From: Paludibacteraceae bacterium
Lineage (GTDB): Bacteria; Bacteroidota; Bacteroidia; Bacteroidales; Paludibacteraceae
Reading direction: 5' to 3'
NCBI GenBank assembly: GCA_017444065.1
Contig: JAFSXJ010000013.1
Location: 1-40,236, forward strand
DNA length: 40,236 nt
Shown here: piece after piece, positions 4,765 through 19,651 of the stretch
How the letters are laid out: every line of letters begins with the position of its first letter
Numbering within the stretch: the first letter of the stretch is position 1
Notes under the pieces: generated by a model
Databases searched by the model: none
Seen by the model: only the letters and a program-made list of their open reading frames with translations
Told to the model about the DNA's origin: nothing
Position numbers and translations under genes: made by a program

Positions 4765-4846
4765 CGTCATAATTTTCGTAAAAACCAATACACTTATCCT
4801 ACGGTGACGTCCACGATGATCCCGAAATGGTCGCGAATAATGACTC

Positions 4847-4905: not shown

Positions 4906-4974
4906 ATTGACAACTATTCTGCATTTAACGATTTCGCCTATGTGCTGAAACTGATCTTGAATCGTCCTTGGGTT

Positions 4975-5007
4975 TATGTTATGCTTATGTTATGCTTATG
5001 TTATGCT
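4975..5007. repeat. Tandem repeat, 3 x 11 bp
   Basis: The unit TATGTTATGCT occurs three times head to tail without a mismatch, inside the gene-poor stretch after ATPase copy B. Confidence 0.9.
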
Positions 5008-5780: not shown

Positions 5781-5868
5781 AATCTTTAACACTGGTCCGT
5801 GTCGTGCGCAACTATTAAATTTATATTGCAGAGTTTTTCCGTCCTTTCTATATATAAATGCGCAAAAA

Positions 5869-5892
5869 GAGCCAAAAGTAACCTCTTGGCTC
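5869..5892. terminator. Inverted repeat, possible terminator
   Basis: GAGCCAA (5869-5875) and TTGGCTC (5886-5892) form a perfect 7-bp stem with a 10-base loop. On the minus strand it is followed by TTTTTGC, on the plus strand by GATTTTTC. There is no well-supported gene immediately upstream on either strand. Apart from this element and the promoter at 6146-6185, I see nothing in 5781-6203. Confidence 0.4.
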
Positions 5893-6145
5893 GATTTTTC
5901 TGGAAAAAAAATTGAAGACCTCATTCTTTGTCCCCATTACAGCAAAAATGAATTTTAGCGACGGCGAATTTGTGTTTTTGCCGTAGGAAAAATTCAAAAT
6001 CAAGGTAAAGGGCCACTGCTCCGAGTAGCTTCAATAAGATTCCAGAAAAGTCCGAAGTAAAAAAGTTGGCAGACGATGAACCCTCTTGAAATTAAATATA
6101 TACTTGTCAAATTGTAAAGAAATCAACAAAAAACGCATGTCATTT

Positions 6146-6185
6146 CACTTAAAAGTGTAATATTTCATTTTTTTTATTATCTTTG
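6146..6185 (+). promoter_or_regulatory. Toxin-antitoxin promoter with likely autoregulatory operator
   Basis: The -7 box TATCTTTG lies at 6178-6185, 18 bp before the ATG. No good TTTG is present at -33. Just upstream of that position is the near-palindrome CACTTAAAAGTG (6146-6157), placed where an antitoxin repressor commonly binds. Its use as an operator for the downstream XRE protein is inference. Confidence 0.5.
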
Positions 6186-6203
6186 TACTCAAATTCAAGA
6201 ATT

Positions 6204-6680
6204 ATGGAAAGAACTGCTAAAATTGTATCTGTTGCTCAATCGGACAACGTCGGCCTCTACTAGATTAGTTTTAATGGCGGCGAAACCGAATATCAAAAAT
6301 TCAGAGCCAAATTCAAAGAAAACGCCAAGCTCAACAAAGACTATCAGGAAATCCTATTCGCTATAGACCGAATCATTGCAAATGGCGCTTTTGAACGACA
6401 CTTTAGACGCGAAGGTAAATCCAAAGACAGAGTTGCAGCATTATCTGTTTATTCCAAGACATTAAGACTATACTGTTTGCGAATATCAGATCATATCCTA
6501 ATTGCTGGTAATGGCGGAAACAAAACAACCCGCACCTACGAAGAAGACAAAGAACTCAATGGTTACGTTATAGATCTGCAGAAGTTTGACGAGCTCCTGA
6601 AAGAAGCACAACAAAACGGCTCTATAACTATAGAGAAGAATGTAATAATCGGTATTGAAGAAACATCCTTTACATTATGA
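6204..6680 (+). pseudogene. Toxin-like gene of a type II TA pair with in-frame amber codon
   Basis: The frame starting at ATG 6204 encodes a 158-codon product interrupted by TAG at codon 20 (6261-6263). Otherwise it reads smoothly, with the pattern LRLYCLRISDHILIAGNGG followed by a TRTYEEDKEL segment. I recognise this as a common Bacteroidota toxin-like protein found in front of an XRE antitoxin, and a relation to the RelE/HigB group is possible. The stop at 6680 overlaps the antitoxin ATG by 4 bp (ATGA). No good start codon follows the amber codon in the next 200 bases, so the gene is probably inactivated. One substitution would restore it, so a sequencing error should be excluded. Promoter and antitoxin appear intact. 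Confidence 0.65.
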
Positions 6681-6949
6681 CAACTTTCTACGACAAAGAA
6701 TTGGAACAAGAGTTGAATGCCATACCGGCAGCAACACGCGAGTCCTATATGCTTGCCGATAAAATAGCAAGCAGGATTGAGTATGTCATGAAGGAAAAGA
6801 ATGTGAGCAAAAAGCAACTCGCTGAAAAGACTCACAAGAGGCCATCAGAGATAACCAAATGGTTAGCCGGCGGTCATAACTTCACATGCAAGACCATTGG
6901 ACTTATCCAGCAAGCATTAGGCGCTCCGCTGATAGAGGTGGCACACTGA
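6677..6949 (+). CDS. XRE-family HTH antitoxin
   Basis: A 90-residue protein with a helix-turn-helix at about residues 30-85 (IASRIEYVMKEKNVSKKQ, then LAEKTHKRPSEITKWLAGG). It is typical of the antitoxins that follow the toxin in HigBA-like pairs. The start overlaps the upstream stop by 4 bp, implying translational coupling. It should bind the toxin and repress the promoter at 6146-6185; both are inferred from family behaviour. A strong terminator follows within 10 bp, so the pair forms a two-gene unit. Since the toxin frame is broken, the antitoxin may now be a leftover or may act on another toxin. Confidence 0.75.
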   Translation: MTTFYDKELEQELNAIPAATRESYMLADKIASRIEYVMKEKNVSKKQLAEKTHKRPSEITKWLAGGHNFTCKTIGLIQQALGAPLIEVAH

Positions 6950-6957
6950 TAAATTAG

Positions 6958-6994
6958 CAACGACTCGCAAAACGCGAGTCGTTGTTGTTAGTTT
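6958..6994 (+). terminator. Intrinsic terminator of the TA operon
   Basis: A perfect 11-bp stem (6958-6968 with 6974-6984) closes a 5-base loop, and the 3' side runs into TTGTTAGTTT. It starts 8 bp after the antitoxin stop codon. Confidence 0.85.
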
Positions 6995-7031
6995 ATGCCC
7001 ATTTGATTATAGATGAGCATCTGCATGTCTG

Positions 7032-7154
7032 CTATAGTTTATTGAACAGATTGGTGATTTTCTCTTTTTGATATTTGGCGATGAGGTCTTTGTAGTCCTG
7101 GCGGGAGCGGCATGTATCTCGTCCTGTTACGCAGCCAATCACGAGTCGTTCGCA
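7032..7154 (-). pseudogene. C-terminal remnant of an unidentified gene
   Basis: A 40-codon minus-strand frame without a start codon reads ERLVIGCVTGRDTC, then RSRQDYKDLIAKYQKEKI and a short tail to the TAG stop at 7032. It has protein-like composition and looks like the tail of a longer protein. Upstream the frame is closed by TAA (7155-7157). I do not recognise the family. No other gene fits 6995-7194. Confidence 0.35.
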
Positions 7155-7194
7155 TTAGTTCTTACCGATACATTTCCGAACTCTCATCCTAACA

Positions 7195-7854
7195 TTAGTT
7201 CATGCATTCCAAATGGAAACGGATTTGTTTCTGGCATTTAGGGCAGAAAGTAAGCACACCTTCTCTGCCGCACAAGTTCTCCCATGTCTCTGACGATGTT
7301 GAAACAAAAACCTCGACGAGCGAAGTTCCGCATGTGGGACATGTCTCGGAGATTATCCTTCGTCTGTTGGTGCTGCAGCCGCATTGCGCAACATCGTTCC
7401 ATTTCCAAGCAGGAAATCCGGAAAGATCTCTTTCTTGTTTAAGCAAATAGCTCTCAACATGAAGGCTCTTCCATTCTTCCAGGCTCATGATCTTCCGGCG
7501 ACTCTTGATTTTCATGAGCTCATCATAGAAGTATTCGCCTTCATAATTGACGACATCAATACCTGCCTGAACAAAGCCCTCAAAACTGCGCTCCTTTAGA
7601 TATGTTCTGATCTTCGATTCCATATCAAAGCGGTAGCATTCATTATTCTCGTCGTAATGAAACACTTTACCCCATATGTGGTATTTACCTATATTAGAAT
7701 GATATGTCACCCGCAAATCCAGATGAAATAAGGTGTCATTGAACACATAGTAATAATCCCCGAAAACACTGCTTTTGCTTTGAATGCTCCGCTTAAAGGT
7801 ATTCAGTGGGATTTCGTTCGTCTTGCTTAAAAGTTCTTGTTGTTCTGTCTTCAT
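7195..7854 (-). CDS. Hypothetical protein with C-terminal zinc ribbon
   Basis: A 219-residue cytoplasmic protein without signal peptide or membrane segment. The last 65 residues carry paired cysteines arranged as CGC, CPTCG, a later single C and CPKCQ, which should bind one or two zinc ions. The N-terminal two thirds are rich in aromatic and charged residues and match no family I know. A -7 box TACTTTTG lies 46 bp upstream, so it probably has its own transcript. The neighbour to the right (7943-8293) is also a small zinc-ribbon protein. Confidence 0.65.
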   Translation of the reverse strand: MKTEQQELLSKTNEIPLNTFKRSIQSKSSVFGDYYYVFNDTLFHLDLRVTYHSNIGKYHIWGKVFHYDENNECYRFDMESKIRTYLKERSFEGFVQAGIDVVNYEGEYFYDELMKIKSRRKIMSLEEWKSLHVESYLLKQERDLSGFPAWKWNDVAQCGCSTNRRRIISETCPTCGTSLVEVFVSTSSETWENLCGREGVLTFCPKCQKQIRFHLECMN

Positions 7855-7900
7855 AAATGTAGATTTTTGTTGGGTTATATACTAATGACATTTATGAGCA

Positions 7901-7908
7901 CAAAAGTA
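7901..7908 (-). promoter_or_regulatory. -7 box upstream of the zinc-ribbon gene
   Basis: TACTTTTG on the minus strand fits TAnnTTTG and is followed by about 46 bp before the ATG at 7854. No TTTG stands at the expected -33 position, so this is a weak or activated promoter at best. Confidence 0.4.
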
Positions 7909-7942
7909 ACCACTTGCACCATGTTTTTTATGGTAAGTCCTC

Positions 7943-8293
7943 CTATCCCTTCACCATTGCGATCAGTTCCTCAAGGGTATAGGCGTAGCGGATGGTGTAG
8001 CCATTGCGGATGAAGGCGGCATATAGGGGATTAGGTCGGGTGTCGCGAGGCTGTTCTTCCGGCGTGGGACGGAACTCGATGAGCTGACGATTAGGCATGT
8101 CGTGATACAGCATGGGATAATTGATGTCCCATACTCGTCCGCATTGAGGACATCTCCATTGGAACAACTCGCCCGAAATGATCTTCTCTTTCAACTCAGG
8201 CGAGAGAGACGTATTAACACTCTCCCAAACAGTAAATTCCCCACGCGCTCCGCATTGCGGGCATTGGATGGTATGATTTCTCTGACTGGACAT
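7943..8293 (-). CDS. CpXC domain zinc-ribbon protein
   Basis: A 116-residue protein with two CPQCG motifs about 38 residues apart (near residues 11 and 49), the hallmark of the CpXC family. The segment between them (EFTVWESVNTSLSPELKEKI, then ISGELF) fits family members, which are small proteins of unknown function. There is no signal peptide. It lies 39 bp after the small membrane protein gene and seems to be the last gene of the long run that begins at 17695. Alternatively it could be expressed alone; no promoter was seen in the short gap. Confidence 0.75.
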   Translation of the reverse strand: MSSQRNHTIQCPQCGARGEFTVWESVNTSLSPELKEKIISGELFQWRCPQCGRVWDINYPMLYHDMPNRQLIEFRPTPEEQPRDTRPNPLYAAFIRNGYTIRYAYTLEELIAMVKG

Positions 8294-8332
8294 AATAATG
8301 ATAGCAGTTTACTTGTGAAAGGTTATATCGTA

Positions 8333-8497
8333 TTACCACCATTTGCCGCCAAGCCACATCCAGACGAAGAAGAGGATGCCACCGATGAGCGGGCCGATAG
8401 ATTTTTGCGGTACGCCTATCAGATGGAATACGAGCACCAACAGCACACCTATCTCTATCATAGCAAGGATTCTCTTGGGCTTGGAATCAATCTTCAT
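8333..8497 (-). CDS. Small two-helix membrane protein
   Basis: A 54-residue protein starting at ATG 8497, 13 bp after the DUF1232 gene. A basic N-terminus (KIDSKPKR) precedes two hydrophobic segments, about residues 10-27 and 34-49, ending in GGKWW. It looks like a small inner-membrane protein. The longer frame upstream of this ATG overlaps the DUF1232 gene and is not credible. The function is unknown. Confidence 0.55.
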   Translation of the reverse strand: MKIDSKPKRILAMIEIGVLLVLVFHLIGVPQKSIGPLIGGILFFVWMWLGGKWW

Positions 8498-8510
8498 GTA
8501 CTGTCGTTTT

Positions 8511-8828
8511 TTATGCAGGTATCCACTTATCCAGTTGAGCCTCAGCGCGGCGGTACATGTCGGGAGTAATGTACTTGCGCATGCGGTCATATACTATTTC
8601 GATGGAAAGGATCTCATCCGCCCAACCAAGAATAGGATTCTTGCGAGCAGAGATCAAGTCAACCGGTAGAATCAAATATGCCAGAGCAGCATAGATGATA
8701 GCCTTATCTTTTGCTGCCGTCTTGTCATCTTTCAGGACATAGTATAGCAACAGCGGCGTTCGAGCCATTGAACGCCCTACACGTCTGGCGAAACCACCAA
8801 GATTATTCCATAACAGATTCAGATTCAT
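8511..8828 (-). CDS. DUF1232 (YkvA-like) membrane protein
   Basis: A 105-residue protein with the DUF1232 signature: a lead-in LLLYYVLKDDKTAAKDK, a hydrophobic helix IIYAALAYLILPVDLI and a conserved NPILGWADEI segment. Family members are small membrane-associated proteins of unknown role. The start codon lies directly after the stop of the small basic gene (8830-8991), so the two are likely co-translated. Confidence 0.8.
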   Translation of the reverse strand: MNLNLLWNNLGGFARRVGRSMARTPLLLYYVLKDDKTAAKDKAIIYAALAYLILPVDLISARKNPILGWADEILSIEIVYDRMRKYITPDMYRRAEAQLDKWIPA

Positions 8829-8829
8829 T

Positions 8830-8991
8830 TTATTTGAACGCTTTGGTTAATTCGCTGATTACTATCTTGCCAACCTTGCGTTCAAGTCCTTGTTTGGACG
8901 TTGGAATACCCGTTGCCTTTGCAAACTGTTGCTTTGCCTTTGTTACACCTAAAGCTCTCTTCCATGAGAATGTTAGACCTGGGATTTTCAT
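8830..8991 (-). CDS. Small basic protein
   Basis: A 53-residue open frame that is easily missed by size. It reads MKIPGLTFSWKRALGVTKAK and then a basic helix-rich tail with ATGIPTSKQGLERKVGK. It fills the gap between the PEGA protein gene (26 bp upstream) and the DUF1232 gene (1 bp downstream) on the same strand. I recall similar small ALGVTKAK-type proteins in Bacteroidota, some next to DUF1232 genes. No function is known. The tight fit argues that it is real. Confidence 0.6.
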   Translation of the reverse strand: MKIPGLTFSWKRALGVTKAKQQFAKATGIPTSKQGLERKVGKIVISELTKAFK

Positions 8992-9017
8992 CGTATATAT
9001 TTTTGGAAAAAAATTAT

Positions 9018-10514
9018 TTACAACGCGAAGCCTATACCAACTACTAAATTGGATAAAGCATCCATAACCTCGAGATATTCTTTTGTTACTAAAGTATTAT
9101 ATCCTGCTGTAATGGTAAAGCCCTTTCCAGATTTACCATGAATATTTGCAATAATACCACCTTCGACATTTGCCCCGCTAACTTTCGGCGAATATTTAAA
9201 CTTCGAGCCATCGCTTTCAAATGTACCATATCCAGCTCCAGCATATAAATATAATTCCTGACATAAACGGAACATTAAACCTCCGTTGACAGACCAACTA
9301 TTCACTCCGAAAGTGTTTTCAGAAGCCGCAGGCTGCATGTTGCCAGAAAACAACGGCATACCTATATTGTATCTGCCAGATATGTATCCTCCTGCTATCC
9401 CACATATGCCCAACATAAGTCCAGCATCTGCTTTCGGTGAGTATTGGAACGAGAGGAATGTCCATGGTTTCTTTTTGTATAAATTTGGAGCATTTACTTC
9501 TGTCGTTTGTACCTGTTCGACATGAACATTTTTAGAACGTGACCAGTATCCGGGACGGGTAAACACCACCTTATAATCTCCAAGCAAACTATTCGTTGTT
9601 TCACTGTATATGGTACGTTTCTCCATGTTATTCTTTTTTCGCGGCTTCAAGTAATCATATCCAGCATTAAATGTTTGATTTGACTTGGCATAGGATTCTC
9701 TAAGGCATCCTAAGATTTCCTTCTTGAAAGTTGCACCTGAACTGGGAACATTGATTTCATGCTCTTCTTCAATTTCGCCATGTTTTACTTTTACACGATG
9801 ATTCCCAATGGATACAGATGCAACATACTTGTGCTTCCCTGCAGATATCCCGTCAACGTATATATCGGACAACTCATCTGTTTCAATAGTAAGGAAAGCA
9901 GATGATTGACTTAATACTATGGCGCGTTTTATTGTATCGTCTCGATTAAGATTTATAATCTCATTGTATGTTCCAAATCCATTTTTTTCGACCGAAATAG
10001 AATATTGATTGACTTCTAACAACTTATCATATGTACTTCCTCCATAAAAAGGCTCATTGTTGATTTTCAACACGGCTCCTTGAGGACCATAGTTTATTAT
10101 TAGTCGACCATAATACTTGACATCTTTACCGGAAATGACCATTTTATAGCAACATTTCCGCTTAACTTTTTTTATGCCATAATCAGCAAATTTAATTGTT
10201 ATAGGCAAATATGTACCATCTTTTTTGCGAATCTCCAGAAAACGTGCGCCTTCTGCCATAAAGAAGACATACTGCCCTTGATTGTATTGTTGCTCTCCTA
10301 TAATATAGTCTGACACAAATACCAAATCATTCAAAGTACATTGAACTTTTATAATGGCCGTTTCTACACCATTTGCGTCTTTGGGATTATTAACATCAGA
10401 TCCACTTGCATCGTTCAAGGCTTCATAAAAGTCTTGTTCGATAACAAACTCTTCTGCATGCAAACGCATAGCAAACGATGCAATAATCAATAAAAATATT
10501 ATTATCCTTTTCAT
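9018..10514 (-). CDS. PEGA-domain protein with C-terminal barrel-like region
   Basis: A 498-residue protein with an N-terminal signal peptide (KRIIIFLLIIASFAMRLHA). After an all-beta region of about 130 residues come PEGA-type units: about 145-205 (GAVLKINNEPF, later VEKNGFGTYNEI), 205-270 (IYVDGISAGKHKYV) and a weaker one near 305-345 (GDYKVVFTRPGYWSRS). The last 150 residues (LGICGIAGGYISGRYNIG, YLYAGAGYGTFES, ending VVGIGFAL) alternate like an outer-membrane beta barrel. PEGA domains are envelope-surface modules often linked to signalling clusters. It lies 13 bp after the NTF2-like gene and belongs to the run headed by the kinase. Confidence 0.75.
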   Translation of the reverse strand: MKRIIIFLLIIASFAMRLHAEEFVIEQDFYEALNDASGSDVNNPKDANGVETAIIKVQCTLNDLVFVSDYIIGEQQYNQGQYVFFMAEGARFLEIRKKDGTYLPITIKFADYGIKKVKRKCCYKMVISGKDVKYYGRLIINYGPQGAVLKINNEPFYGGSTYDKLLEVNQYSISVEKNGFGTYNEIINLNRDDTIKRAIVLSQSSAFLTIETDELSDIYVDGISAGKHKYVASVSIGNHRVKVKHGEIEEEHEINVPSSGATFKKEILGCLRESYAKSNQTFNAGYDYLKPRKKNNMEKRTIYSETTNSLLGDYKVVFTRPGYWSRSKNVHVEQVQTTEVNAPNLYKKKPWTFLSFQYSPKADAGLMLGICGIAGGYISGRYNIGMPLFSGNMQPAASENTFGVNSWSVNGGLMFRLCQELYLYAGAGYGTFESDGSKFKYSPKVSGANVEGGIIANIHGKSGKGFTITAGYNTLVTKEYLEVMDALSNLVVGIGFAL

Positions 10515-10527
10515 CGCAATATATTAT

Positions 10528-11520
10528 TTATTTCGTATTTAAGTCAAAGAATGAGGGATCAAAGATTTCATCTTCATCCAGTGTTTGAGTTCGACTATCA
10601 TCTAAATACTTTGGTTGCCATGTGCGCACCCTGATTTTGGGCTCATTTTCATTTGTGAAGTCCCATAGCATGAATACATAGCCTACATCTGAATATGTGG
10701 ATGAGCTCCAATGTTGTGTTACAAGAACACCATATACATTGGGATATTTTTGTGCGTTTACATGCCGATAAATCTTCACGTCATCGAACTTTACATTGAT
10801 GTAATTATTCTTTTTAAATACTATGCTAAGTCTATTCACATATTCCGTCTTAGTTTCTTTGCGATATACAACTAAATCGCTATTGGGATTAACTTCCGAG
10901 CCTGGGACGCGGCGTATAACTTTGCCTGTGATAATCAATGCATCATCGCTAAAGATGTCATTAATGAACGGTAAATCTTTCTTATTGTAAGCTGTCCGAT
11001 ATTGCTCAACAAAATCAAGGATCTGCAATCTTCTCGTAAGATCGTTGAGTTCTGCACCTTTTTTCAAGACATCTGCTCCCACATGGGCATCATCAGCCAT
11101 AACAAAATAACGAATTCTACCATCGGATGTAAAGTTGATTATACCTTCTTTTATAGATGCTTGTTCGTCTATCGTTGTTCCATCTGTCGGTATTACTCGG
11201 ATAACTATGTTTCGAATCTGATATCCCGTTTGAGTTTTTATACCCGCCGTAGATATTTGTTCTGCATCACATGAGAAATGAAGATTCTCCCAAAGCATAT
11301 TGATATCATCTCCAAAATCACTTTCGCAAGATATTCCAGATAGAATGAGCGAACGATTTGCAAGGCAAGCCGAATTAACTTCTGTGAGTAGTTTAGATGC
11401 GTTTTGCTCCATTGTAGAAGCAATACTCGGCGAGGAAACACCCGATGTGATTTTTACATCAACCGCTTGGCTTGTACAAAAAACACTTAGAGCGATTACT
11501 ATTAAAATAAATTTTTTCAT
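10528..11520 (-). CDS. Secreted protein with NTF2-like C-terminal domain
   Basis: A 330-residue protein. The ATG at 11520 begins a signal peptide (KKFILIVIALSVFCTSQA); a longer frame upstream would overlap the preceding gene and lacks this signal at its start. From about residue 190 an NTF2/SnoaL-like fold is suggested by FVEQYRTAYNKKDLPFIN, then DIFSDDALIITG and a closing VGYVFMLWDF segment. The first half (AS.LLTEVN, then CESDFGDDINMLWENLHFSC) is of unknown fold. It lies 22 bp after the preceding gene. The domain is likely to bind a small ligand or a partner; no catalytic residues are recognised. Confidence 0.65.
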   Translation of the reverse strand: MKKFILIVIALSVFCTSQAVDVKITSGVSSPSIASTMEQNASKLLTEVNSACLANRSLILSGISCESDFGDDINMLWENLHFSCDAEQISTAGIKTQTGYQIRNIVIRVIPTDGTTIDEQASIKEGIINFTSDGRIRYFVMADDAHVGADVLKKGAELNDLTRRLQILDFVEQYRTAYNKKDLPFINDIFSDDALIITGKVIRRVPGSEVNPNSDLVVYRKETKTEYVNRLSIVFKKNNYINVKFDDVKIYRHVNAQKYPNVYGVLVTQHWSSSTYSDVGYVFMLWDFTNENEPKIRVRTWQPKYLDDSRTQTLDEDEIFDPSFFDLNTK

Positions 11521-11542
11521 TGTATATGAGTTTGATAATTTA

Positions 11543-12637
11543 CTAATAAAGAGTATGTTTTGTGTCGTAGAACAAATCTGTAACATTAGACATCCTAACA
11601 TAGGAATGTAACGAACATCTAACCACATCCTTCTTTCCTAAAAGCGTTTTTATAGGAAACTCTACAAAGAGCACATGTATATATCCTAACGATTCATTTA
11701 CCCATATATACGATCCGTTAATTGTTTCTGTATTGAAGTTCTCAACTCCCCAATATGGAATACAACCATCATTATATGCAATATTCTGCCATGCATTCAG
11801 CGAGATTGTATCAGCTATGACATTGTACCCATACCGATGATGCTCCATACGCACAACTATTGTACTATCACTCCCAGCAATCATTATGTTTTGTAGTGTC
11901 TGTTTTGGAAAAACATATGGCGAAGAAAGAATACGTAGATTTTGGTTCTTATGCAAATAGATTGTATTGGTAAGTTGGTCTGATAGGTAACAAGTTCCTT
12001 GCGCCATCATAAATGGAGCTAAAGGGATTGATTTTAGTCGAGTAGTATCAATAACTAAAGCAGGCTTTTCGTTTCGCAAATGCTGAGCAAACAACTCGTG
12101 ATCCAACTCTATCTTATCTTTTCCTCTTATCAACTGCACATCTTTTGGGAACATGAATCGAGCCTTAACAACTTCATTCGATATCACAGCAAAACAATAT
12201 CCTTTGTCAGATTCAGTTAGGGATGTAGAAACTGTTGAGTCTAGAAAGTTTTGACCTATTATATCTCCAAATGTTCCTTCACTAAACCACACCCCATCAT
12301 CCTGCATCTTTTGCACGTTCGGTATTTCATGTGAAGATGGGAGCACTAATTCCAACATGTATCGTTCAATAAATGTTTCGATTTGTTTAGGATAGAGCGA
12401 CAGCGAATCCGGGAAAATTGCACATCCTATATGTGTAATTACATGATCTGAATCAATATTTACCCGCACCTGGCATTTTTGATACGTCAGGAACAAGCAT
12501 GTATCAGCAAATGTTGAATCGCAGATTTCTGCAAGGCGCAAGGCAGAACCCATCTGCTGAAGACGAGAAGATTCATACACTTGGCAATACCCAACAACCG
12601 AGTATATACATAATAATATTATGAACCACTTTTTCAT
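11543..12637 (-). CDS. Secreted hypothetical protein
   Basis: A 364-residue protein with a signal peptide (KKWFIILLCIYSVVGYC). The mature part is beta-rich with scattered cysteines, and I see no motif that places it in a family. Its ATG overlaps the stop of the upstream membrane-protein gene by 4 bp, so the two are probably translationally coupled. The position between a membrane protein and an NTF2-like secreted protein suggests a periplasmic or surface role within the same pathway. Confidence 0.6.
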   Translation of the reverse strand: MKKWFIILLCIYSVVGYCQVYESSRLQQMGSALRLAEICDSTFADTCLFLTYQKCQVRVNIDSDHVITHIGCAIFPDSLSLYPKQIETFIERYMLELVLPSSHEIPNVQKMQDDGVWFSEGTFGDIIGQNFLDSTVSTSLTESDKGYCFAVISNEVVKARFMFPKDVQLIRGKDKIELDHELFAQHLRNEKPALVIDTTRLKSIPLAPFMMAQGTCYLSDQLTNTIYLHKNQNLRILSSPYVFPKQTLQNIMIAGSDSTIVVRMEHHRYGYNVIADTISLNAWQNIAYNDGCIPYWGVENFNTETINGSYIWVNESLGYIHVLFVEFPIKTLLGKKDVVRCSLHSYVRMSNVTDLFYDTKHTLY

Positions 12638-13605
12638 TCAGAAGAACCATGAAGAAATTCTTTTAATTTTACATCTTTAGAGAACCAATACGCATTTTCA
12701 GGCTTTCCGTTCACAAAACGCCCTTTTATATAGTCCCCCTTTTCTGTTATCTTGCCCGGCCAACCAGTAATTTCTACTGATTTATTATATGTTAATATTC
12801 CTTCACCATTTATACTATTAGGGCTCATACCATTTTTACTTTCCCATGTTCCGTAACTAAGTTTGAGCTGCTTGGGATTAGTTTTAGTTTTTGGCTTGTC
12901 CTTAACTATAGGAGGAGTAACAGGAGTAGAAGTCCTATCCTGCTTTGGCTTTTCTGTGGTAGTTGTAATGGTCGGCTGCGGATTTGGTGCTGTGTTTTGA
13001 GGTTGGCGTTGTATCAAGAACACAACTAGTATACCTATGAGCAGTCCGATGCAGGCCGCAATTAACAAGAAAATGATCAACTTCTTTTTTTCGTTTTGCA
13101 AACGGATCTGTTCTTCAGCCCTTAAACGCGCCTCTTCAGCTTCTTTAGCAACTCTTTCTGCTTCTTTAGCTCGTTGCTCTGCAGCTTTTGCACGTTCTTC
13201 AGCATCCTTAACTATATCTTGCGAGTCCTTTTCACCACTGCCCTGCGAAATGTTTGGTTGTTGAGAAGACGCGAATACTTGTCGAGCGGATGACAGCGCC
13301 GGATATGTATGAAGCCATCCTAAACCATAAGCCAAACAAGAGAACGCATACAATGCTGCTTCTTCTTGCAGTTTATTCTTTCGAGCAAAAGACCGCGCGA
13401 GCAATTCTGCTTCGGCATTCCATTTACCTATATCAAGCAATTTGCGTGTATAGCCATCTTGGACAACGTTCTTTAGAATCTTCTTGTAAGGGCGCGCTTC
13501 AACATCAGCAAACCCACCTTCATCGTCAATACAATTGACAAAAATGTTGGAGCAGATGATATCTGTTCCACGATTCTTAATTATTTTTTTTATAATAACG
13601 TGCAT
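12634..13605 (-). CDS. Membrane protein: helical N-domain, coiled coil, TM, MORN-like tail
   Basis: A 323-residue protein with four visible parts. Residues 1-100 form a predicted helical domain (FADVEARPYKKILKNVVQDG, then ALYAFSCLAYGLGWL) that I recall at the N-terminus of many Bacteroidota proteins without a settled name. Residues 132-173 are an Ala/Glu/Arg coiled coil (EERAKAAEQRAKEAER). A single transmembrane helix spans about 176-198. A Pro/Thr linker then leads to MORN-like units (GEGILTYNKS, KGRFVNGKPENAYWF) near the C-terminus. There is no signal peptide, so the N-domain should face the cytoplasm and the MORN part the periplasm. It could connect the kinase/phosphatase pair with the secreted proteins encoded downstream; this is inference. 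Confidence 0.65.
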   Translation of the reverse strand: MHVIIKKIIKNRGTDIICSNIFVNCIDDEGGFADVEARPYKKILKNVVQDGYTRKLLDIGKWNAEAELLARSFARKNKLQEEAALYAFSCLAYGLGWLHTYPALSSARQVFASSQQPNISQGSGEKDSQDIVKDAEERAKAAEQRAKEAERVAKEAEEARLRAEEQIRLQNEKKKLIIFLLIAACIGLLIGILVVFLIQRQPQNTAPNPQPTITTTTEKPKQDRTSTPVTPPIVKDKPKTKTNPKQLKLSYGTWESKNGMSPNSINGEGILTYNKSVEITGWPGKITEKGDYIKGRFVNGKPENAYWFSKDVKLKEFLHGSSE

Positions 13606-13609
13606 CCTT

Positions 13610-14296
13610 TTAACGCTTGAATGATTGCATGTATGCTATCACGGCTTGTAATCCCTGACGTTCGTACATATTTTTCATTTTGCGGAATCCATCGCCATAA
13701 ATAGGGTCCGCACTGTTGGTCAACAGGAATATTTGTCCTGTTGCCACTTTTGTACCAATAGATTGTAGAATAAGATAGGCACCAAGATTGCAAAACCCCT
13801 CTGTTATAGGTTGGGGTGGAAATATCTGATTTTCATACTGCCATATATGCAACATTTCATGAGATAGAACTAAAGCGAGCGCAGTTTTTGACAAATGACG
13901 GAGTACGACCATTGTAAATCCTGCTGGTTCGGGAGGATAAATAACATAACCTCGCACATTGTGGGCATACTGTTGCTCCATTTGTGAAACAGAAACTCCT
14001 TTTAGAAATACATGCGACTTTACCTCTAATCTATTTTGCTTATAAAATGTGCGAATATAGGATATAACAGACTTAACAGTATTCTTATCAGGTATAGTTT
14101 TGGAGCAAGACTCACACAACCAGACATGAGGCTCTATTTCTATAGCATTCTTGCCGTATGTACGCCCGCAGCAATAACATAAGCAATTCTTATGTTCCTC
14201 ACAGGCATAATTACCGTCCCAATCTCGGTATGCTGCGTCCAATAATCGTTTGCCGCATACGCTACAACAATGGGCACTTAGTCCAATCAGGTCCAT
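13610..14296 (-). CDS. LIM-type zinc-binding protein with DA1-like metallopeptidase domain
   Basis: A 228-residue protein. Residues 10-64 carry LIM/treble-clef-like zinc ligands: CSVC (11-14), CEEH (32-35), CLCYCC (38-43) and CESC (61-64). A zincin domain follows, with HEMLH at 146-150 and a downstream Glu in ITEGFCNLGAYL (about 166), the arrangement of gluzincin-type DA1-like peptidases. Plant DA1 is a LIM-domain peptidase, and bacterial LIM-plus-peptidase relatives are known from comparative genomics. The gene sits 6 bp after the PP2C gene and 4 bp before the membrane-protein gene. The active-site residues are present, so an active protease is likely. The substrate is unknown. Confidence 0.75.
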   Translation of the reverse strand: MDLIGLSAHCCSVCGKRLLDAAYRDWDGNYACEEHKNCLCYCCGRTYGKNAIEIEPHVWLCESCSKTIPDKNTVKSVISYIRTFYKQNRLEVKSHVFLKGVSVSQMEQQYAHNVRGYVIYPPEPAGFTMVVLRHLSKTALALVLSHEMLHIWQYENQIFPPQPITEGFCNLGAYLILQSIGTKVATGQIFLLTNSADPIYGDGFRKMKNMYERQGLQAVIAYMQSFKR

Positions 14297-14302
14297 AGCA
14301 CT

Positions 14303-15649
14303 TTAATCTCCAGATGCATCGTCTATTTTTACATTGTCACCCTTGATATAGCGCAACGACTGAACGGATTTTTCGTAATTAGCCTTGCAACGTTGGTATT
14401 CACGTTCGATAGCCAGTTTACGAGACTCCAAATCTTTGCTCTCTTTTTGAGATTTCTCAATTTTTTGCTCTATTTCTGTCAATTTTTGTTGCCACTCGGC
14501 CATTTCCTTTATATACATTTGAATATCTACGCCAAGCGAATCCACAAGTCTATCTTCAATTGCCTTAGACATAGTGTCAAGCAACTTCTCGTTGTAGACA
14601 AAAGCAACTGACATATCGTCTTGACTACCACTCTTGCTCAACTTAGGCAAGTTAGATTGAATTTCAGGAATAACAGCCTCTAATCCTTCTTTTTTGATTG
14701 AGCGGATAATGTTGCCGTAGAAATTATATAATCTATCACCGTCTCCAAATGTATCATCTAAGCCATCTGAACCCAAGAAAATAGCTGCTGGGAAATAGTT
14801 GTCACTCTCAACACAATATCTAAAATCATTTACAGGATTCGAGCCACACAATGAAGTTGTTTTATTCAGGAAACATTTTTCATCCCATGGGATCGGTTGA
14901 GAGAATTGCATATCCACATCCAGCATGACGCATTTGCCATCGCCCAAGTGGAACGCAAACCAATAATCCGGTGTCTGAACGTAAGTCATCAACGTACAGC
15001 CATACACTTTTACTATGCGTTCTGGATCTTGTAATAATTGCAGGTGCTCCGGCTTGACGTTATTGGTTTCCCATTCGGTTACAGGGCGCGAAGCGTCTTC
15101 GGAAATAGTTTGTCGCCATTGAGCATATATAGTGGCAAACAAATGCCGCATGACTATATCCAATTGATCTTGTTTGTCAATTGTATCCAATGTGCCGACC
15201 TGTGTTAAATGTAAGTTAGCAAACGTCGACTTATCACACTCGCGAACAAATTCCTGAACCGTTTTAACCGTAATATCAGCTGCTGCCTTTGCGCCAAAAG
15301 CACTTCGGAAATATGTATCTCCACCATGTCCGTCGCAAACTACGGCTATATAGAAACCATGCTCATCATCTGCAAATGTACAAGAATAGTCCTGACACTC
15401 TTTGTCAGTTCCTTTATGGCTTTCTCCTTGGCAGGAATAATTATAGCATCTTGTTCGCAATCTTTCGGTATTATCATGATATTGCTCCGTATCGTCATGT
15501 GAATCATCGTTTTTATCGATGTCCACGAAGGGCTCGGCAGGAATTGGATCCTGCCGAACCTCTGATTGGGGGAATTGTTGTTCGGATGTTTCTTCTTTTT
15601 TGCGAGAAGAAAATAAACTAAAGAACGACATACGTATAGACATTAACAT
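14303..15649 (-). CDS. PP2C-family protein phosphatase with C-terminal coiled coil
   Basis: A 448-residue protein. Metal-binding PP2C motifs are present: a KECQD segment (83-87) in the position of the usual NQD, then VVCDGHGG (103-110), HLGDGKC, LGSDGLDD and SQDDMSVAF. The N-terminal 65 residues are low-complexity and acidic. The last 70 residues form a charged coiled coil (LTEIEQKIEKSQKESKDLES). Its ATG directly abuts the stop of the VWA gene. The expected role is removal of phosphate groups placed by the adjacent kinase. PP2C, TerY-like VWA and kinase genes together make the TerY-P triad known from tellurite-resistance-type gene neighbourhoods, although no other ter gene is seen here. Confidence 0.85.
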   Translation of the reverse strand: MLMSIRMSFFSLFSSRKKEETSEQQFPQSEVRQDPIPAEPFVDIDKNDDSHDDTEQYHDNTERLRTRCYNYSCQGESHKGTDKECQDYSCTFADDEHGFYIAVVCDGHGGDTYFRSAFGAKAAADITVKTVQEFVRECDKSTFANLHLTQVGTLDTIDKQDQLDIVMRHLFATIYAQWRQTISEDASRPVTEWETNNVKPEHLQLLQDPERIVKVYGCTLMTYVQTPDYWFAFHLGDGKCVMLDVDMQFSQPIPWDEKCFLNKTTSLCGSNPVNDFRYCVESDNYFPAAIFLGSDGLDDTFGDGDRLYNFYGNIIRSIKKEGLEAVIPEIQSNLPKLSKSGSQDDMSVAFVYNEKLLDTMSKAIEDRLVDSLGVDIQMYIKEMAEWQQKLTEIEQKIEKSQKESKDLESRKLAIEREYQRCKANYEKSVQSLRYIKGDNVKIDDASGD

Positions 15650-16402
15650 TTACCAATTGTCATCCATGCTAACATTAGCCGCCTCAGTGCCTATTTGCAC
15701 ATTATCAGCGCCTTGAAGCTGCTGTGCAATCGCCTTGTTGGTCTCATCTTGTTTGGTGGCAGGTTCCGCACCTCCGGCTGTTGTGCTGGAACTTTTTGAG
15801 CCGACTTGAGACGATGTTACCACAACGCATCTAATCACCTTTTTTAGAGACTCGACATCGTGTACCTGGATAACACTTTCGATGTTTCCTGTAAACTTAG
15901 CCAAAACTTCGAGATCCGCATCGTCACCAATTGCGATAGCCACTTTGATAGCTGCTTTGTACCAATTGTTTTGTTTCAATTTGTCCAAACCGCCATTGAA
16001 ATCATCTGTTGGTCCTCCATCAGAAAGTAGTATCAAGACTGGGGCAAATGAACCACTTCCACTTGTCATAAAGCCATGTGATTTCGATAATTTGTTCGCT
16101 AGTTCGACACACGCCTCGCCCAAATCGGTAACACCTCCGGCAGTCTGATCTGGCCAATCGAAATCTGCAGCTATTTTTGGCTCATTGTAAACCCAATTGC
16201 AGCCACTTGAGAAAGTCATCGCTGCAATTTTGATTTCTGCGTCAGCATTGGAGTCATTAATGTCATTAACTATGGGCAGTACGTTACGAATAGCATCGTT
16301 AACTGCTCCGATTTTCGAACCTCTCATACTGCCTGACACATCAGCCAATAGGAAAAGAGTCATCGTGCGACGTGGCACGGCTTCTACGTCAAGTAAACTC
16401 AT
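15650..16402 (-). CDS. TerY-like VWA domain protein
   Basis: A 250-residue soluble protein with a complete MIDAS: DVSGSM at 21-26, the Thr in GGVTDLG at about 92 and the Asp in LLSDGGPTDD near 128. The VWA fold fills residues 10-190. A Ser/Thr- and Gln-rich tail follows. In TerY-P triads the VWA protein is the presumed phosphorylation target or scaffold, and the Ser/Thr-rich tail here would be a natural site; that is inference. The gene lies 18 bp after the kinase gene and abuts the PP2C gene. Confidence 0.85.
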   Translation of the reverse strand: MSLLDVEAVPRRTMTLFLLADVSGSMRGSKIGAVNDAIRNVLPIVNDINDSNADAEIKIAAMTFSSGCNWVYNEPKIAADFDWPDQTAGGVTDLGEACVELANKLSKSHGFMTSGSGSFAPVLILLSDGGPTDDFNGGLDKLKQNNWYKAAIKVAIAIGDDADLEVLAKFTGNIESVIQVHDVESLKKVIRCVVVTSSQVGSKSSSTTAGGAEPATKQDETNKAIAQQLQGADNVQIGTEAANVSMDDNW

Positions 16403-16420
16403 AGTAGTAAAATTTTATGG

Positions 16421-17695
16421 TTATTGAATTTTTGCGATGTATTGATATCCTCTGATTTTTAGTTTTAATTGCAATCCTAACTTAACTGGCAAATACTCAT
16501 TCGTCTTGACAATGCGAATTTGACCTTGCGTAGTTTGCACCTCTATTTCATTTGACATCAAGTTCTGAATAACAAGCATATTCGGATTTTGAGCCGTATG
16601 AACGACACGCATATCCGGTGTGTCATCGCGGTCGATAAAGAGCATATTGCCGTCCGTCAATGCTAATTTACGCTTATCTATAACTAGAACATTATTAACC
16701 TGAATTGTTTTGCCGCATTCCATACACTTCGTTTGGCTAACAAATGTTTCTTTTCCGCAATAAGGGCATCGAATAAGGTCGTCACGTACAGCTGTTAGGA
16801 TATCCAACCATTGCTGCTCTGTTAGGCGTTTCGTAGGAGATTGAAGAATAGGAGCTGTAAACTCGCGCACAAAGGCATCTCTAAGCGCGGCGGGGAAGGC
16901 AGGCCAGCGCGCAATTACATTGTTATGAACGCCTTTAACCGGTCCATTAGACTTGTCCTGTGGATTGGCTATAAATAAGATTTCACTTCCATAGCATTTG
17001 CGCTCCCATTCTTCTGTCATACACGGATGTCCTAGCACCTTTGCCCCTTCAAATGGGTGATTCATGTAAATAACCAGGAACAGAATCAGCGACATTGAGA
17101 ATTTGTCTGTATAGGCATCCGGCATACGTTGACCGGTTACAACTTCTGGAGCCATATAGCGAGCTTTACCTAAGATGCCGGATTTCTCTCCATTTGGGAA
17201 AGCATTGTCGTTATCGCATATAAGCACATGTCCTGTCTTGGGATTGATAAAGAAGTTTCCGTCATTCAAGTCCTGATAACTTAACCCCTTCGCATGCAAT
17301 GCTTTATAAGCCTCGCAGATTTCAATCGCAGTCGTTAGAAGTGCTCCCACATTCACAAAACGCTGCCTCGCAATTAGGAATTGTCCAAACTCATAATAAC
17401 CTTCCGGGCGCAATTTCATAATATAGCCAAAACTCCCCTGCTCATATTGAGTAACGTACTCCGGCCATATAAACATAGGAGCAGGAGCTCCGTCATCGGC
17501 GTTCTTGCGCAAGTTCTTGTAAAACTTATCCGGGGAAGATGATGGCGCAGACTTATACCATTTCAAAGCCATATCTTTTCCATTAACTGAGACAAGATAA
17601 ACATATCCCTGTCCTCCTTCGCCCAGAAGTTTCTTCACTGTGGCAGTCATTCCGTTGGTTAAGTGTACGGTCGCACCAATTTTTAATTCTGACAT
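16421..17695 (-). CDS. Protein kinase with zinc ribbon and FHA-like tail (TerY-P type)
   Basis: A 424-residue soluble kinase. It has a glycine loop GEGGQG (25-30), ATP-binding Lys in MALKWY (K45), a catalytic loop YQDLNDGN (140-147) in place of HRDLKPEN, a metal-binding CDNDN (160-164) in place of DFG, and MAPEVV (181-186). The Asp and Asn needed for catalysis are retained. A zinc ribbon follows (Cys 310, 313, 324 and 327) and then a beta-rich tail of about 95 residues that resembles an FHA-like or related phosphopeptide-binding fold. It is the first gene of the minus-strand run that continues to 7943. No good promoter was found just upstream. Confidence 0.85.
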   Translation of the reverse strand: MSELKIGATVHLTNGMTATVKKLLGEGGQGYVYLVSVNGKDMALKWYKSAPSSSPDKFYKNLRKNADDGAPAPMFIWPEYVTQYEQGSFGYIMKLRPEGYYEFGQFLIARQRFVNVGALLTTAIEICEAYKALHAKGLSYQDLNDGNFFINPKTGHVLICDNDNAFPNGEKSGILGKARYMAPEVVTGQRMPDAYTDKFSMSLILFLVIYMNHPFEGAKVLGHPCMTEEWERKCYGSEILFIANPQDKSNGPVKGVHNNVIARWPAFPAALRDAFVREFTAPILQSPTKRLTEQQWLDILTAVRDDLIRCPYCGKETFVSQTKCMECGKTIQVNNVLVIDKRKLALTDGNMLFIDRDDTPDMRVVHTAQNPNMLVIQNLMSNEIEVQTTQGQIRIVKTNEYLPVKLGLQLKLKIRGYQYIAKIQ

Positions 17696-18011
17696 ATGAT
17701 TTAGTTTTACAATATTTTTTCGGATTTCCTATCTGAGGTGATTTGCATGAGACTTATAAAAAAATCATCCTTATCAACAACATTGTACTGAAAATCATCC
17801 ACGCACATTGAATATCACGCGTACATTCCATTTCGTGGGTATAATCTTTTACTAAACATACTAGACAAGTAAGATCCTTTCTAATTTATCACAAACCCAT
17901 TACTCATGCTATCCTTATCTATGTTTTATCGGATTTTCGGCATCCTCCGTATATATACATGTCATTTACTCACCATAAAGTAACCCCCTCATGTGATTTT
18001 TTTGCAAATAG
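17696..18011. other. Intergenic stretch upstream of the kinase gene
   Basis: AT-rich sequence with no gene I can support. It lies between the terminator of the RNA candidate and the kinase start codon and should hold the promoter of the signalling run, but no clear TAnnTTTG box was found on the minus strand. The short repeat AAAATCATCC occurs twice (about 17759 and 17790). Confidence 0.5.
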
Positions 18012-18291
18012 GTACAATAAAAGCGGGACTGCACTATTGCTGTTCCGCTTGTTGAGGCTCTGGTATTGCCTTTCGTTCCAAACAACAACACTGAAGCCCA
18101 CGCCGCATGTATATATGTGCACGCACATACGCGTACATAAGAATACATACCAATGGGCATCTTTGTGCTGCGATGTTTTGGAACAAAGAATTTACCAGAT
18201 TCCAACAAGCCAAAACAAAGCGCGTAAGACGCCTTTATATGTCCGTATCTACCCACCCCTTAGGACATATTCCCTCGGCGTGAGCTAAATA
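18012..18291 (-). ncRNA. Candidate structured non-coding RNA, about 280 nt
   Basis: A consensus promoter (18298-18329) and a strong intrinsic terminator (18013-18050) on the same strand bracket this stretch. No credible protein lies between them. The RNA strand contains several inverted repeats: ATATGTCC with GGACATAT over 18 bases near the 5' end, CCGTAT with ATACGG around them, TTGGAA with TTCCAA, and a long hairpin closed by GCCCA with TGGGC that includes ATGTAT with ATACAT. I do not recognise it as tmRNA, RNase P RNA or SRP RNA; their signature motifs are absent. A 6S-like or Bacteroidales-specific RNA is possible but unproven. Exact ends are estimates. Confidence 0.6.
18013..18050 (-). 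terminator. Intrinsic terminator of the RNA candidate
   Basis: On the minus strand AAGCGG, then AC and GCA pair with TGC, GT and CCGCTT around a 4-base loop, giving an 11-bp stem with two 1-base internal mismatches. TTTTATT follows directly. Confidence 0.8.
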
Positions 18292-18297
18292 CGGATG

Positions 18298-18329
18298 CAA
18301 AGGTACAAAAAAAATCTGACATTTGCAAG
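18298..18329 (-). promoter_or_regulatory. Strong promoter of the RNA candidate
   Basis: CTTG (18326-18329), a 20-bp spacer ending in a run of eight T and one G, and TACCTTTG (18298-18305) on the minus strand. The whole 32 bp differs from the gyrB promoter (39198-39229) at only about three positions. Transcription would start near 18291. Confidence 0.75.
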
Positions 18330-18410
18330 AGGAAGAAGAAGATTTTTGCGAAAAGGAGGAAAGAATGTGAGAAATTTAACGGGAATACCAAATATGGCGC
18401 ACCTGCAACT

Positions 18411-18437
18411 GCAAAACGAGCACATGAAGTGCCCGTT
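18411..18437 (-). terminator. Intrinsic terminator after the GH26 gene
   Basis: On the minus strand ACGGGCAC and GTGCTCGT form an 8-bp stem (one G-U pair) around a 5-base loop, followed by TTTTGC. It lies about 100 bp beyond the stop of the mannanase gene. Confidence 0.65.
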
Positions 18438-18510
18438 ATATTGAATAGGAGATGGGTTTGAGTACGGAAACCACGGAATGGACGGAAAGAAGAAATGAAA
18501 GCATCTACTT

Positions 18511-18561
18511 CATCTGGGCTTTCATTTCATCTGTGCTTTCATTTCATCAGCGCCTTCATTT
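18511..18561. repeat. 17-bp tandem repeat across the GH26 stop codon
   Basis: Three head-to-tail 17-bp units of the form CATCTGNGCTTTCATTT lie at 18511-18527, 18528-18544 and 18545-18561; the last is degenerate. The third unit encodes the last residues of the mannanase, so the tail and 3' flank arose by local duplication. Confidence 0.75.
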
Positions 18562-19651
18562 CTTCGCGGTCGATGACCAAGCCTGTGCCGAACGCATCTT
18601 TCCACCATGCTTCGCCGGCGAACTGGTGCTCGTCACTGGTGCCGTTGTTGTAGTTGTAGTCATACCACGGCATGAACCAGCTCCAGCGGCTGCCTTCCGC
18701 CCAGATCTTCGACCACAGGGACATATCCACCTCGTCGCCGTTGCCGCACTCAGCCAGCGTGATCAGTTTGTTCGGGTACTCGCTTTTGAGTTGTTTGTAC
18801 TCCTTGGCGAGCGGGTACTGCAGGGCGTAGTAGTTGTCGCGTCCGACCACATCCACCACATCATCGCCCGGGTACCACACATTGTCGCCTATCTGCGAGT
18901 TCCACACCCAGATGAGGTTGTTGAGCTTGTGATAGTTGACCAACCGGTCGTACATGAAACGCCAGAGCTGCTTGTATACCTCCGGTCCTTTTGCTCCCCA
19001 CCAGAACCATGCACCGCCTCCGGCAAAGTCGTAGGTGTTGCCTGCCGCCTCGTGCAGCGGACGCCAGATGACAGGGATGCCGCGTTTCTGCATCTTCTTC
19101 AGGTAACCGGCGACTTGGTCGATGTCATGAATCATTCGCTTGTACTCGTCGCTGGACGGGTCGCTGACTTTCGACGGGTCGAAGCTCGTCTGTCCGGGGT
19201 CTGTGCCCGGCGAGCATGTGTAGTTGGTGCCGTTGTTGGCAGGCACCTGCCAGTGCCACATGCAGCCTACCACACCGCCGGCATCATACCAGTCGGTCAC
19301 GGGCGTGAGGTCGCTGTAGTCCAGCCAGCCTTGTTTGTTCACATCCTTGGAGGCGTGGATATTGATGAAGTCAAACACGTTGAGGGCAGGGTAGCGTCCT
19401 GTCCACTTATAGACGTTCTCCGCCTCACGGGTGTTCCAGTCGATGTTCGCCACAACGCCCGACATCGCTTTCTTCTCGAACTGCGATGTCAGCACTGCCC
19501 ACAACCGCTGCGTCTCGGCAGTGGCATTGGGGTTGCACAGGGTGTAGGTGACGGCCGGTTGCGGCTCAGGCTCTTCGGCATGCACACAACTGCACGCACT
19601 CAGGCAGAGCGCAAACAAAACGAATGATTTGAAAGAGAGAAGATGTCTCAT
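18539..19651 (-). CDS. GH26 beta-mannanase, lipoprotein
   Basis: A 370-residue secreted glycoside hydrolase of family 26, expected to cut beta-1,4-mannan at the cell surface. The ATG at 19651 gives a lipoprotein signal with lipobox LSAC (Cys20). The acid/base Glu lies in WRPLHEAAG (E201) and the nucleophile Glu in ITLAECG (E301), both at the expected spacing. Other GH26 features are MWHW near 131 and WFWWG near 216. The ATG further upstream (19720) falls within the regulatory element and is rejected. The gene follows an AraC regulator on the same strand, with an activator-type promoter between them. No SusC/SusD pair is present in the window. Confidence 0.92.
   Translation of the reverse strand: MRHLLSFKSFVLFALCLSACSCVHAEEPEPQPAVTYTLCNPNATAETQRLWAVLTSQFEKKAMSGVVANIDWNTREAENVYKWTGRYPALNVFDFINIHASKDVNKQGWLDYSDLTPVTDWYDAGGVVGCMWHWQVPANNGTNYTCSPGTDPGQTSFDPSKVSDPSSDEYKRMIHDIDQVAGYLKKMQKRGIPVIWRPLHEAAGNTYDFAGGGAWFWWGAKGPEVYKQLWRFMYDRLVNYHKLNNLIWVWNSQIGDNVWYPGDDVVDVVGRDNYYALQYPLAKEYKQLKSEYPNKLITLAECGNGDEVDMSLWSKIWAEGSRWSWFMPWYDYNYNNGTSDEHQFAGEAWWKDAFGTGLVIDREEMKALMK

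Follow-up and report, generated by a model that had tools for sequence, protein, structure and literature searches.

We report that a run of 12 minus-strand genes in a contig of a Paludibacteraceae bacterium (GCA_017444065.1, JAFSXJ010000013.1; the whole stretch analysed, 40,236 nucleotides, is referred to as the window) is, as we read it with moderate confidence, a composite of two systems: a cytoplasmic phosphorylation switch of the TerY-P type (kinase, VWA protein and PP2C phosphatase; the triad) and an envelope device whose cytoplasmic head can be exchanged. The two would be joined by a membrane protein, here called the hub, the N-terminal domain of which (N-dom) would be the plug of the triad. 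A wider claim, for and against which we see about equal weight, is that Bacteroidales have a general trans-envelope device consisting of a MORN hub, two secreted proteins (SEC1 and SEC2) and a PEGA/barrel protein, with a head that is swapped among Zn ribbon/tubulin, kinase, TIR and N-dom with TerY-P, and that N-dom marks direct targets of TerY-P. Comparative genome searches document the gene content, the association of the N-dom adaptor with the triad and the swapping of heads.

The window belongs to a draft genome (2.42 Mb, 145 contigs, 80.6% complete). The run extends from 17695 down to 7943 (open reading frame, ORF, coordinates) and its features, in the order of transcription, are:

16421-17695, minus strand: Ser/Thr kinase, 424 amino acids, with kinase domain (Pkinase), Zn ribbon and C-terminal FHA-like beta domain
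15650-16402, minus strand: TerY-like VWA protein, 250 amino acids, MIDAS intact by eye (VWA)
14303-15649, minus strand: PP2C phosphatase, 448 amino acids, with coiled-coil-like C-terminal tail (PP2C_2)
13610-14296, minus strand: DA1-like peptidase, 228 amino acids, with LIM-like Zn segment and HEMLH...E, both by eye (DA1-like)
12634-13605, minus strand: hub, 323 amino acids, with N-dom (approximately residues 1-105), coiled coil (by eye), transmembrane segment (172-202) and MORN-like C-terminus
11543-12637, minus strand: SEC1, 364 amino acids, start signal-peptide-like by eye
10528-11520, minus strand: SEC2, 330 amino acids, secreted by eye, C-terminus NTF2-like
9018-10514, minus strand: PEGA and beta-barrel-like protein, 498 amino acids (PEGA)
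7943-8991, minus strand: four small tail genes, for a 53-amino acid basic protein, DUF1232, a 54-amino acid membrane protein and CpXC

A preliminary description of this DNA had listed 12 closely spaced minus-strand genes, and these are present. The gaps recomputed from the ORF coordinates are 18 base pairs (bp; kinase to VWA), 0 (VWA to PP2C), 6 (PP2C to DA1-like), 4 (DA1-like to hub), a 4-bp overlap (hub to SEC1), 22 (SEC1 to SEC2), 13 (SEC2 to PEGA), 26 (PEGA to the 53-amino acid protein), 1 (to DUF1232), 13 (to the 54-amino acid protein) and 39 (to CpXC), where SEC2 is taken to start at 11520, an internal ATG of a mechanical ORF that begins at 11628. Pfam was searched with ten of the 12 proteins, i.e. 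all except the 53- and 54-amino acid proteins. The earlier domain calls agree with the matches above cut-off for Pkinase (54.6 bits, cut-off 31.7, E = 1.3e-14), VWA (27.9 bits, cut-off 23.8, E = 3.3e-6), PP2C_2 (87.4 bits, cut-off 24, E = 1.3e-24), DA1-like (30.0 bits, cut-off 25), PEGA (38.5 bits, cut-off 20.8), DUF1232 (34.7 bits, cut-off 23) and CpXC (90.6 bits, cut-off 25.4), with LIM read by eye. SEC1 had no Pfam match, and Cds6_C/DUF4440 in SEC2 and OMP_b-brl in the PEGA protein stayed below cut-off. The MIDAS of the VWA protein (DVSGS...T...D) is intact by eye, as had been described, and so are the DGHGG, GSDGLDD and QDD metal motifs of PP2C and the lysine, the catalytic D/N and the APE of the kinase, which has DND in place of DFG. 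The run splits in three: the triad with the DA1-like LIM peptidase, an envelope module (hub, SEC1, SEC2 and PEGA protein) and the four small tail genes.

That the 12 genes form one unit, as the preliminary description proposed, did not hold. In the search for the gene order among relatives, which had been set beforehand as the test of that claim, the triad was found without the downstream genes in the closest loci, L008 and L009, where the VWA protein is 84% identical and the order is kinase, VWA, PP2C, DA1-like and then an N-dom protein; matches to SEC1, SEC2, PEGA, DUF1232 and CpXC were sought in the fetched stretches of both and none was found. These two loci belong to the genus of the window, since the same-genus loci L003 and L004 lie in them. 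The envelope genes in turn occur without the triad in L070-L072 (see below), and the gene content of these five loci leads us to reject a conserved twelve-gene unit. As to the tail, matches to its genes were sought beside triads and beside SEC1 loci, and none was found save for the 53-amino acid protein, which lies upstream of a single distant triad (L048); this protein is also present in 3 of 25 other genomes of the genus, where the surrounding stretch contains none of the other queried genes. On this missing co-occurrence we reject the tail genes, although they are co-directional, as members of the module.

With the VWA protein as query against genome contigs we identified 54 loci, by label mostly Bacteroidales, with a few from Spirochaetales/Treponema, Ruminococcaceae, Clostridiales and Lachnospiraceae and one from Gammaproteobacteria (L001-L004, which lie inside the window, L008 and L009, were left out of the counts; L005-L007, from genomes of the same family, are not among the 54). 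Kinase, VWA protein and PP2C are all present in 50 of the 54, and the identification of the window genes as a TerY-P-type triad, made already in the preliminary description, is consistent with this conserved block. PP2C relatives occur in 6 of 200 genomes of the family (own genome included). The DA1-like gene was found, among the triad loci searched, only in the window, L008, L009 and their copies L001-L004. In the kinase, a Zn ribbon (CPYC...CMEC) near residues 310-330 has four Cys that are nearly invariant in an alignment of 44 of 49 kinase tails, and its Zn-ribbon Pfam matches are all below cut-off. The C-terminal 127 residues comprise this ribbon followed by a beta domain (AlphaFold pLDDT 93.4), for which FHA domains ranked top in Foldseek (APLF: probability 1.00, TMq 0.51, E = 8.3e-3; TM about 0.5-0.6), with no match at E ≤ 0.001 among the best 50 of 380 matches. 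FHA domains usually carry a phosphothreonine-binding motif; it was sought by eye in the kinase tail and was not evident, and therefore we claim no more than an FHA-like fold.

Two further families were noted in triad loci. One (c3), Cys-rich and of approximately 120 amino acids, often lies directly before the kinase gene (30 of 50 triad loci, e.g. L010 18943-19311), and we presume that it might be a TerY-C-like metal protein; the single copy tested against NCBIfam gave no match, and clustering placed no window protein in it. The other (c11; 14 of 50 loci) looks by eye like a secreted nuclease, again with no NCBIfam match for the single copy tested.

Iterated profile searching over the loci detected the N-dom, of approximately 105 residues, in 65 proteins: in 59 it lies no more than 20 residues from the called start, in four slightly further in and in two at the C-terminus. 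The hub matches its hidden Markov model with E = 4.6e-30 (the profile includes the hub sequence). An N-dom gene is present in 37 of the 50 complete triad loci, in 26 of these 37 with its start no more than 300 bp past PP2C, and across the 50 loci the triad proteins themselves carry no N-dom. As an order-wide control 295 genomes (own included) were searched: N-dom was present in three, each time beside a triad, a close triad VWA (E < 1e-70) in four and any VWA at E ≤ 1e-10 in eight, i.e. N-dom in 3 of 4 genomes with a close triad VWA against 0 of the 291 others (Fisher p = 9e-7). The partner domains of N-dom (55 of 65 proteins scanned) include TPR, Sel1, FtsK, LRR, WG, FGE-sulfatase, FKBP and SF1 helicase with MTES_1575 nuclease, and simple hydropathy assigns a transmembrane segment to an N-dom protein in 24 triad loci. 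The preliminary description noted that no nuclease is present; this is true for the window, but related triads can adjoin nuclease domains, as in L010, where the N-dom protein (assigned to this locus by length and sequence) runs on into an SF1 helicase and an MTES_1575 restriction endonuclease. Proteins of approximately 2300 amino acids with an N-terminal N-dom were seen in L010 (12015-18923) and G478:C2.

The N-dom was modelled as seven helices (AlphaFold pLDDT 96.2), without any match at E ≤ 0.001 among PDB or BFVD (viral) structures; the profile gave seven matches to PDB sequences (E = 0.12-0.94), which we judge to be chance. An alignment of 62 of the 65 proteins was used (L003, L004 and L024 were left out as copies or near-copies), and these 62 copies matched 40 Pfam families at E ≤ 1, where among the 25 listed the commonest was hit by three copies and the best E was 0.0037. 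Hence the Pfam scan does not support that N-dom is an EAD or another known Pfam domain. Our data suggest that N-dom, given its association with the triad, would be a dedicated docking domain which binds it.

Turning to the envelope genes, relatives of SEC1 are present in 4 of 101 genomes of the genus and relatives of the PEGA protein in 3 of 200 genomes of the family, in both cases with the own genome included. In the three other SEC1 loci of the genus, L070-L072, the order is a transmembrane protein, a tubulin-like protein, a hub with Zn ribbon, transmembrane segment and MORN part, SEC1 and a secreted protein, followed in either order by SEC2 and a PEGA-position protein. The tubulin-like protein matches PF13809 in L070 (E = 9e-50; frame split in two) and L072 (5e-46) and was recognised by similarity in L071. 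The window shares the envelope features of these loci (MORN hub, SEC1, SEC2 and PEGA protein adjacent; the PEGA-position protein of L070 matches that of the window with E = 2e-60) but has another head, the triad and N-dom in place of the tubulin-like gene and the Zn-ribbon head of the hub; a tubulin-like gene was sought in the window without a match. Hydropathy calls a single transmembrane segment in the window hub. The earlier wording of "MORN-like" repeats is right in kind, given that the hub C-terminus aligns with other hubs, of which those of L070 and L117 pass the Pfam MORN cut-off, while the window hub itself has no Pfam MORN match (E = 3e-20 to a MORN C-terminus profile built with the hub sequence included).

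SEC1 was followed further in the phylum (9 of 395 genomes, including the own genome and G383) and in the families around G351 (1 of 12, G351 itself only) and G589 (10 of 79, including G589 and G417), and the window protein was aligned with 16 relatives. SEC2 relatives are present in 47 of 393 genomes of the order (own included), and the neighbourhoods of 20 of the places found were read. For the classification of heads we used 34 SEC1 loci including the window (the SEC1 profile of the final scan was built from 17 of the scored loci, which therefore score by construction) and counted a MORN hub when located within 250 bp upstream. Such a hub is adjacent in 17 of the 34 (16 of 33 without the window), and its head is a Zn ribbon in 12, a kinase in two (L116 and L151), TIR in one (L117), lipoprotein-like and by eye without a cytoplasmic part in one (L153) and N-dom in the window; the kinase and TIR heads are backed by Pfam and the Zn ribbons were identified by their cysteine pattern. 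Ten of the 12 Zn-ribbon hub loci have a tubulin-like gene and in the other two the hub starts within 200 bp of a contig end, while none was found within the stretches examined in the five loci with other heads. Among the loci scored as without hub, L120 has a further Zn-ribbon/tubulin hub at 345 bp from SEC1. In L154 (reverse complement 4399-10242), which was scored in the same way, the SEC1, SEC2 and barrel genes lie behind a protein with a caspase domain, shown by search, and Sel1 repeats, read by eye, and behind a membrane protein that by eye is CHASE2-like. Outside these counts, L121 has a TIR-headed hub before a SEC2 relative, without SEC1 (TIR_2 just below cut-off). A search of the open-licence literature returned, in the parts of it that were accessible, no description of the envelope module.

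How might the two parts work together? The hub is predicted to cross the inner membrane once with its MORN C-terminus in the periplasm, where this part could form a trans-envelope assembly with SEC1, SEC2 and the PEGA/barrel protein, as their gene composition suggests. On the cytoplasmic side N-dom would contact the triad; kinase, PP2C and VWA protein might set the phosphorylation state of the hub or assemble on it, the kinase may use its FHA-like domain to read or hold a partner, and the DA1-like peptidase would act on a triad- or hub-linked protein. That a membrane protein links the triad to envelope components, as already put forward in the preliminary description, we judge to be right. With respect to direction, an envelope perturbation (phage, bacteriocin or wall damage) would most likely change the hub, with the triad and the DA1-like peptidase reading this out. 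We consider such an outside-in signal somewhat likelier because the kinase- and TIR-headed MORN hubs, with one transmembrane segment in between, have the layout of receptors.

The opposite direction was that of the preliminary description. On this reading the triad would sense a cytoplasmic signal and phosphorylate the N-dom/coiled-coil part of the hub, and the envelope would be remodelled via MORN, SEC1, SEC2 and PEGA. It draws support from triad loci with His-Xaa-Ser genes. HxsB- or HxsD-family genes are present in 23 of the 50 triad loci (e.g. L014, L016, L017, L020, L021 and L031; both HxsB and HxsC in 21), and all 23 have N-dom. One representative per family was scored, giving HxsB 564.5 bits (cut-off 370), HxsC 324.5 (267.9) and HxsD 68.1 (50), and one representative of the HxsA-like exported repeat protein stayed below cut-off. 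In these loci the first gene is usually of the c5 family, which has N-dom in 24 of 24 members (one transmembrane segment in the copy read by eye) and which precedes the exported repeat protein and radical-SAM maturases; this His-Xaa-Ser partner looks like an output. Among the matches listed for the open-licence literature no title links His-Xaa-Ser to TerY-P. Other N-dom partners, i.e. helicase-restriction endonuclease and FtsK, are also effector-like. However, the kinase- and TIR-headed hubs combine the receptor layout with a catalytic cytoplasmic output, and we therefore regard signalling from the inside out as possible and the less probable of the two.

Several observations weigh against a composite of switch and device. 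N-dom is absent from 13 of the 50 triad loci, including L051-L056 (the sequence of two of the 13, L035 and L046, stops with the PP2C frame or no more than one base from it), and no N-dom match was obtained in G488, although this genome has kinase and PP2C along with a close triad VWA. Under the 250-bp rule, 17 of the 34 SEC1 loci lack a MORN hub next to them; L120 is among these, and so are several in which little sequence is available upstream, such as L110. In L107, L108 and L115 the place upstream is taken by a secreted Sel1-type protein (the Sel1 assignment is shown in L107 and was made by eye in the other two), so the envelope genes also occur without a MORN hub. The PEGA-position protein of L071 matches that of the window weakly (7e-8) and that of L072 gives no match at E ≤ 0.01, while the window SEC1 is 20-22% identical to those of L070-L072. 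Finally, the combination of N-dom and SEC1 was seen in one genome, a draft, and for this reason the junction between N-dom and envelope module rests on one ORF. The single case and the divergence of the envelope genes would suit chance or recent recombination, in which a TerY-P island came to lie beside a degenerate tubulin-type envelope operon and was fused to its hub as a functionless chimera. This we consider improbable, since the hub is an intact 323-amino acid ORF with transmembrane segment and MORN part, SEC1, SEC2 and PEGA are open frames in tight order, and N-dom takes the N-terminal place of the Zn ribbon, the part expected to touch the upstream system. It is likewise hardly likely that the triad works on its own as a TerY-P defence against phages, with the envelope genes as passengers, as one might suppose from TerY-P modules reported to protect against T7-like phages (PMC7699616, PMC11090510, as far as these sources were accessible) and from the matches of the kinase domain to PD-T4-6 (best E = 2.1e-11) and mad6 (1.1e-10) in PADLOC, given that these concern the kinase domain only and might be produced by any related kinase, that at E ≤ 0.1 PADLOC (not checked for TerY-P models) gave no match for the VWA protein and no phosphatase-model match for PP2C, and that the N-dom hub links the envelope genes to the triad.

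The occurrence of N-dom, which accompanies the triad, on varied proteins gives a list of candidate TerY-P partners that can be read from sequence, and the swapped hub heads offer a simple way to tell the sensing half from the acting half.

Some features around the run were also noted. Upstream of the triad, at 18005-18297 (minus strand), lies a putative rod-like and strongly structured RNA, the halves of which fold with z-scores of -5.1 and -4.8; it is preceded by TACCTTTG and ends near CCCGCTTTT. A copy that is 80% identical is present at G000:C11:48327-48568 (L179), and 6 of 107 pairs are changed on both sides and still paired (two sequences, with the structure derived from one). The element that precedes it is:

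18298-18305, minus strand: TACCTTTG, -7 element, candidate promoter for the run or for a leader RNA (motif count)

We take this element to match the Bacteroidetes-type -7 consensus; CAAAGRTA (the reverse of TAYCTTTG) has 8 sites on both strands of the window compared to 2.2 expected. Sigma-70-type promoters are at chance level and 10 terminators were predicted compared to 7.9 expected. Rfam gave no match at the gathering threshold in 5000-19000, and DUF805b RNA (RF02914) matched below threshold at 17924-17949 (minus strand; 25.7 bits, gathering 35.6, E = 6.7e-5). Downstream of the run we see by eye a small two-gene HTH/toxin-antitoxin-like pair and a secreted short-repeat protein of the G-Y-I-S-Y type, at 6477-6949 (plus strand) and 5385-5780 (minus strand).

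The triad of TerY-P was reportedly described by Anantharaman et al. in 2012. The window agrees with it in having a Zn-ribbon kinase, a TerY-like VWA protein and PP2C in one operon, and differs in the FHA-like tail after the Zn ribbon of the kinase, the N-dom partner and the envelope module downstream, with no nuclease, TerC or TerD match among the ten run proteins scanned. In the accessible parts of the literature TerY-P is defined as in the window, with a hypothesised function, and an OB-fold type is cited as stand-alone defence (PMC11090510); protection against T7-like phages is named as well (PMC7699616). FtsZl1 operons carry envelope genes (Makarova and Koonin 2010, PMC2875224, accessible part) and in this resemble L070-L072, where a tubulin-like gene, known by PF13809 match or similarity, accompanies envelope genes; unlike these, the window has no tubulin-like match, and "Bacteroidetes" does not occur in the main text of PMC2875224.

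A parallel can also be drawn with the GAP1-N2 GTPase systems, mainly of Gram-positive bacteria. According to the accessible parts of Kaur et al. 2020 (PMC7159879), the themes tubulin, HSP70 and kinase(ZnR-beta)/PP2C/vWA do not overlap in these systems, membrane proteins have extracellular PEGA or NTF2, and GYF proteins occur. The same source states that for EADs there is always a copy on a core component. N-dom is like an EAD in being a small, non-enzymatic helical domain that is common, within a neighbourhood, to proteins with differing partner domains; unlike an EAD it is fused to no triad protein, and there is no EAD model among the 25 of 40 Pfam families listed. The window differs from GAP1-N2 systems in its Bacteroidales host and in having no GTPase family match among the ten run proteins scanned; "MORN" and "TerY" do not occur in the main text of PMC7159879, and its description, in the parts accessible, does not mention SEC1 or swapped heads. 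As in those systems, tubulin and triad alternate: in Bacteroidales either the tubulin-like gene or the triad stands in front of envelope genes of the PEGA/NTF2-like kind, and the tubulin-like protein of L072 has GYF_2. By analogy, this alternation can be read as a grammar parallel to that of the GAP1-N2 systems, and because of this we regard the window system as a variant rather than as categorically new.

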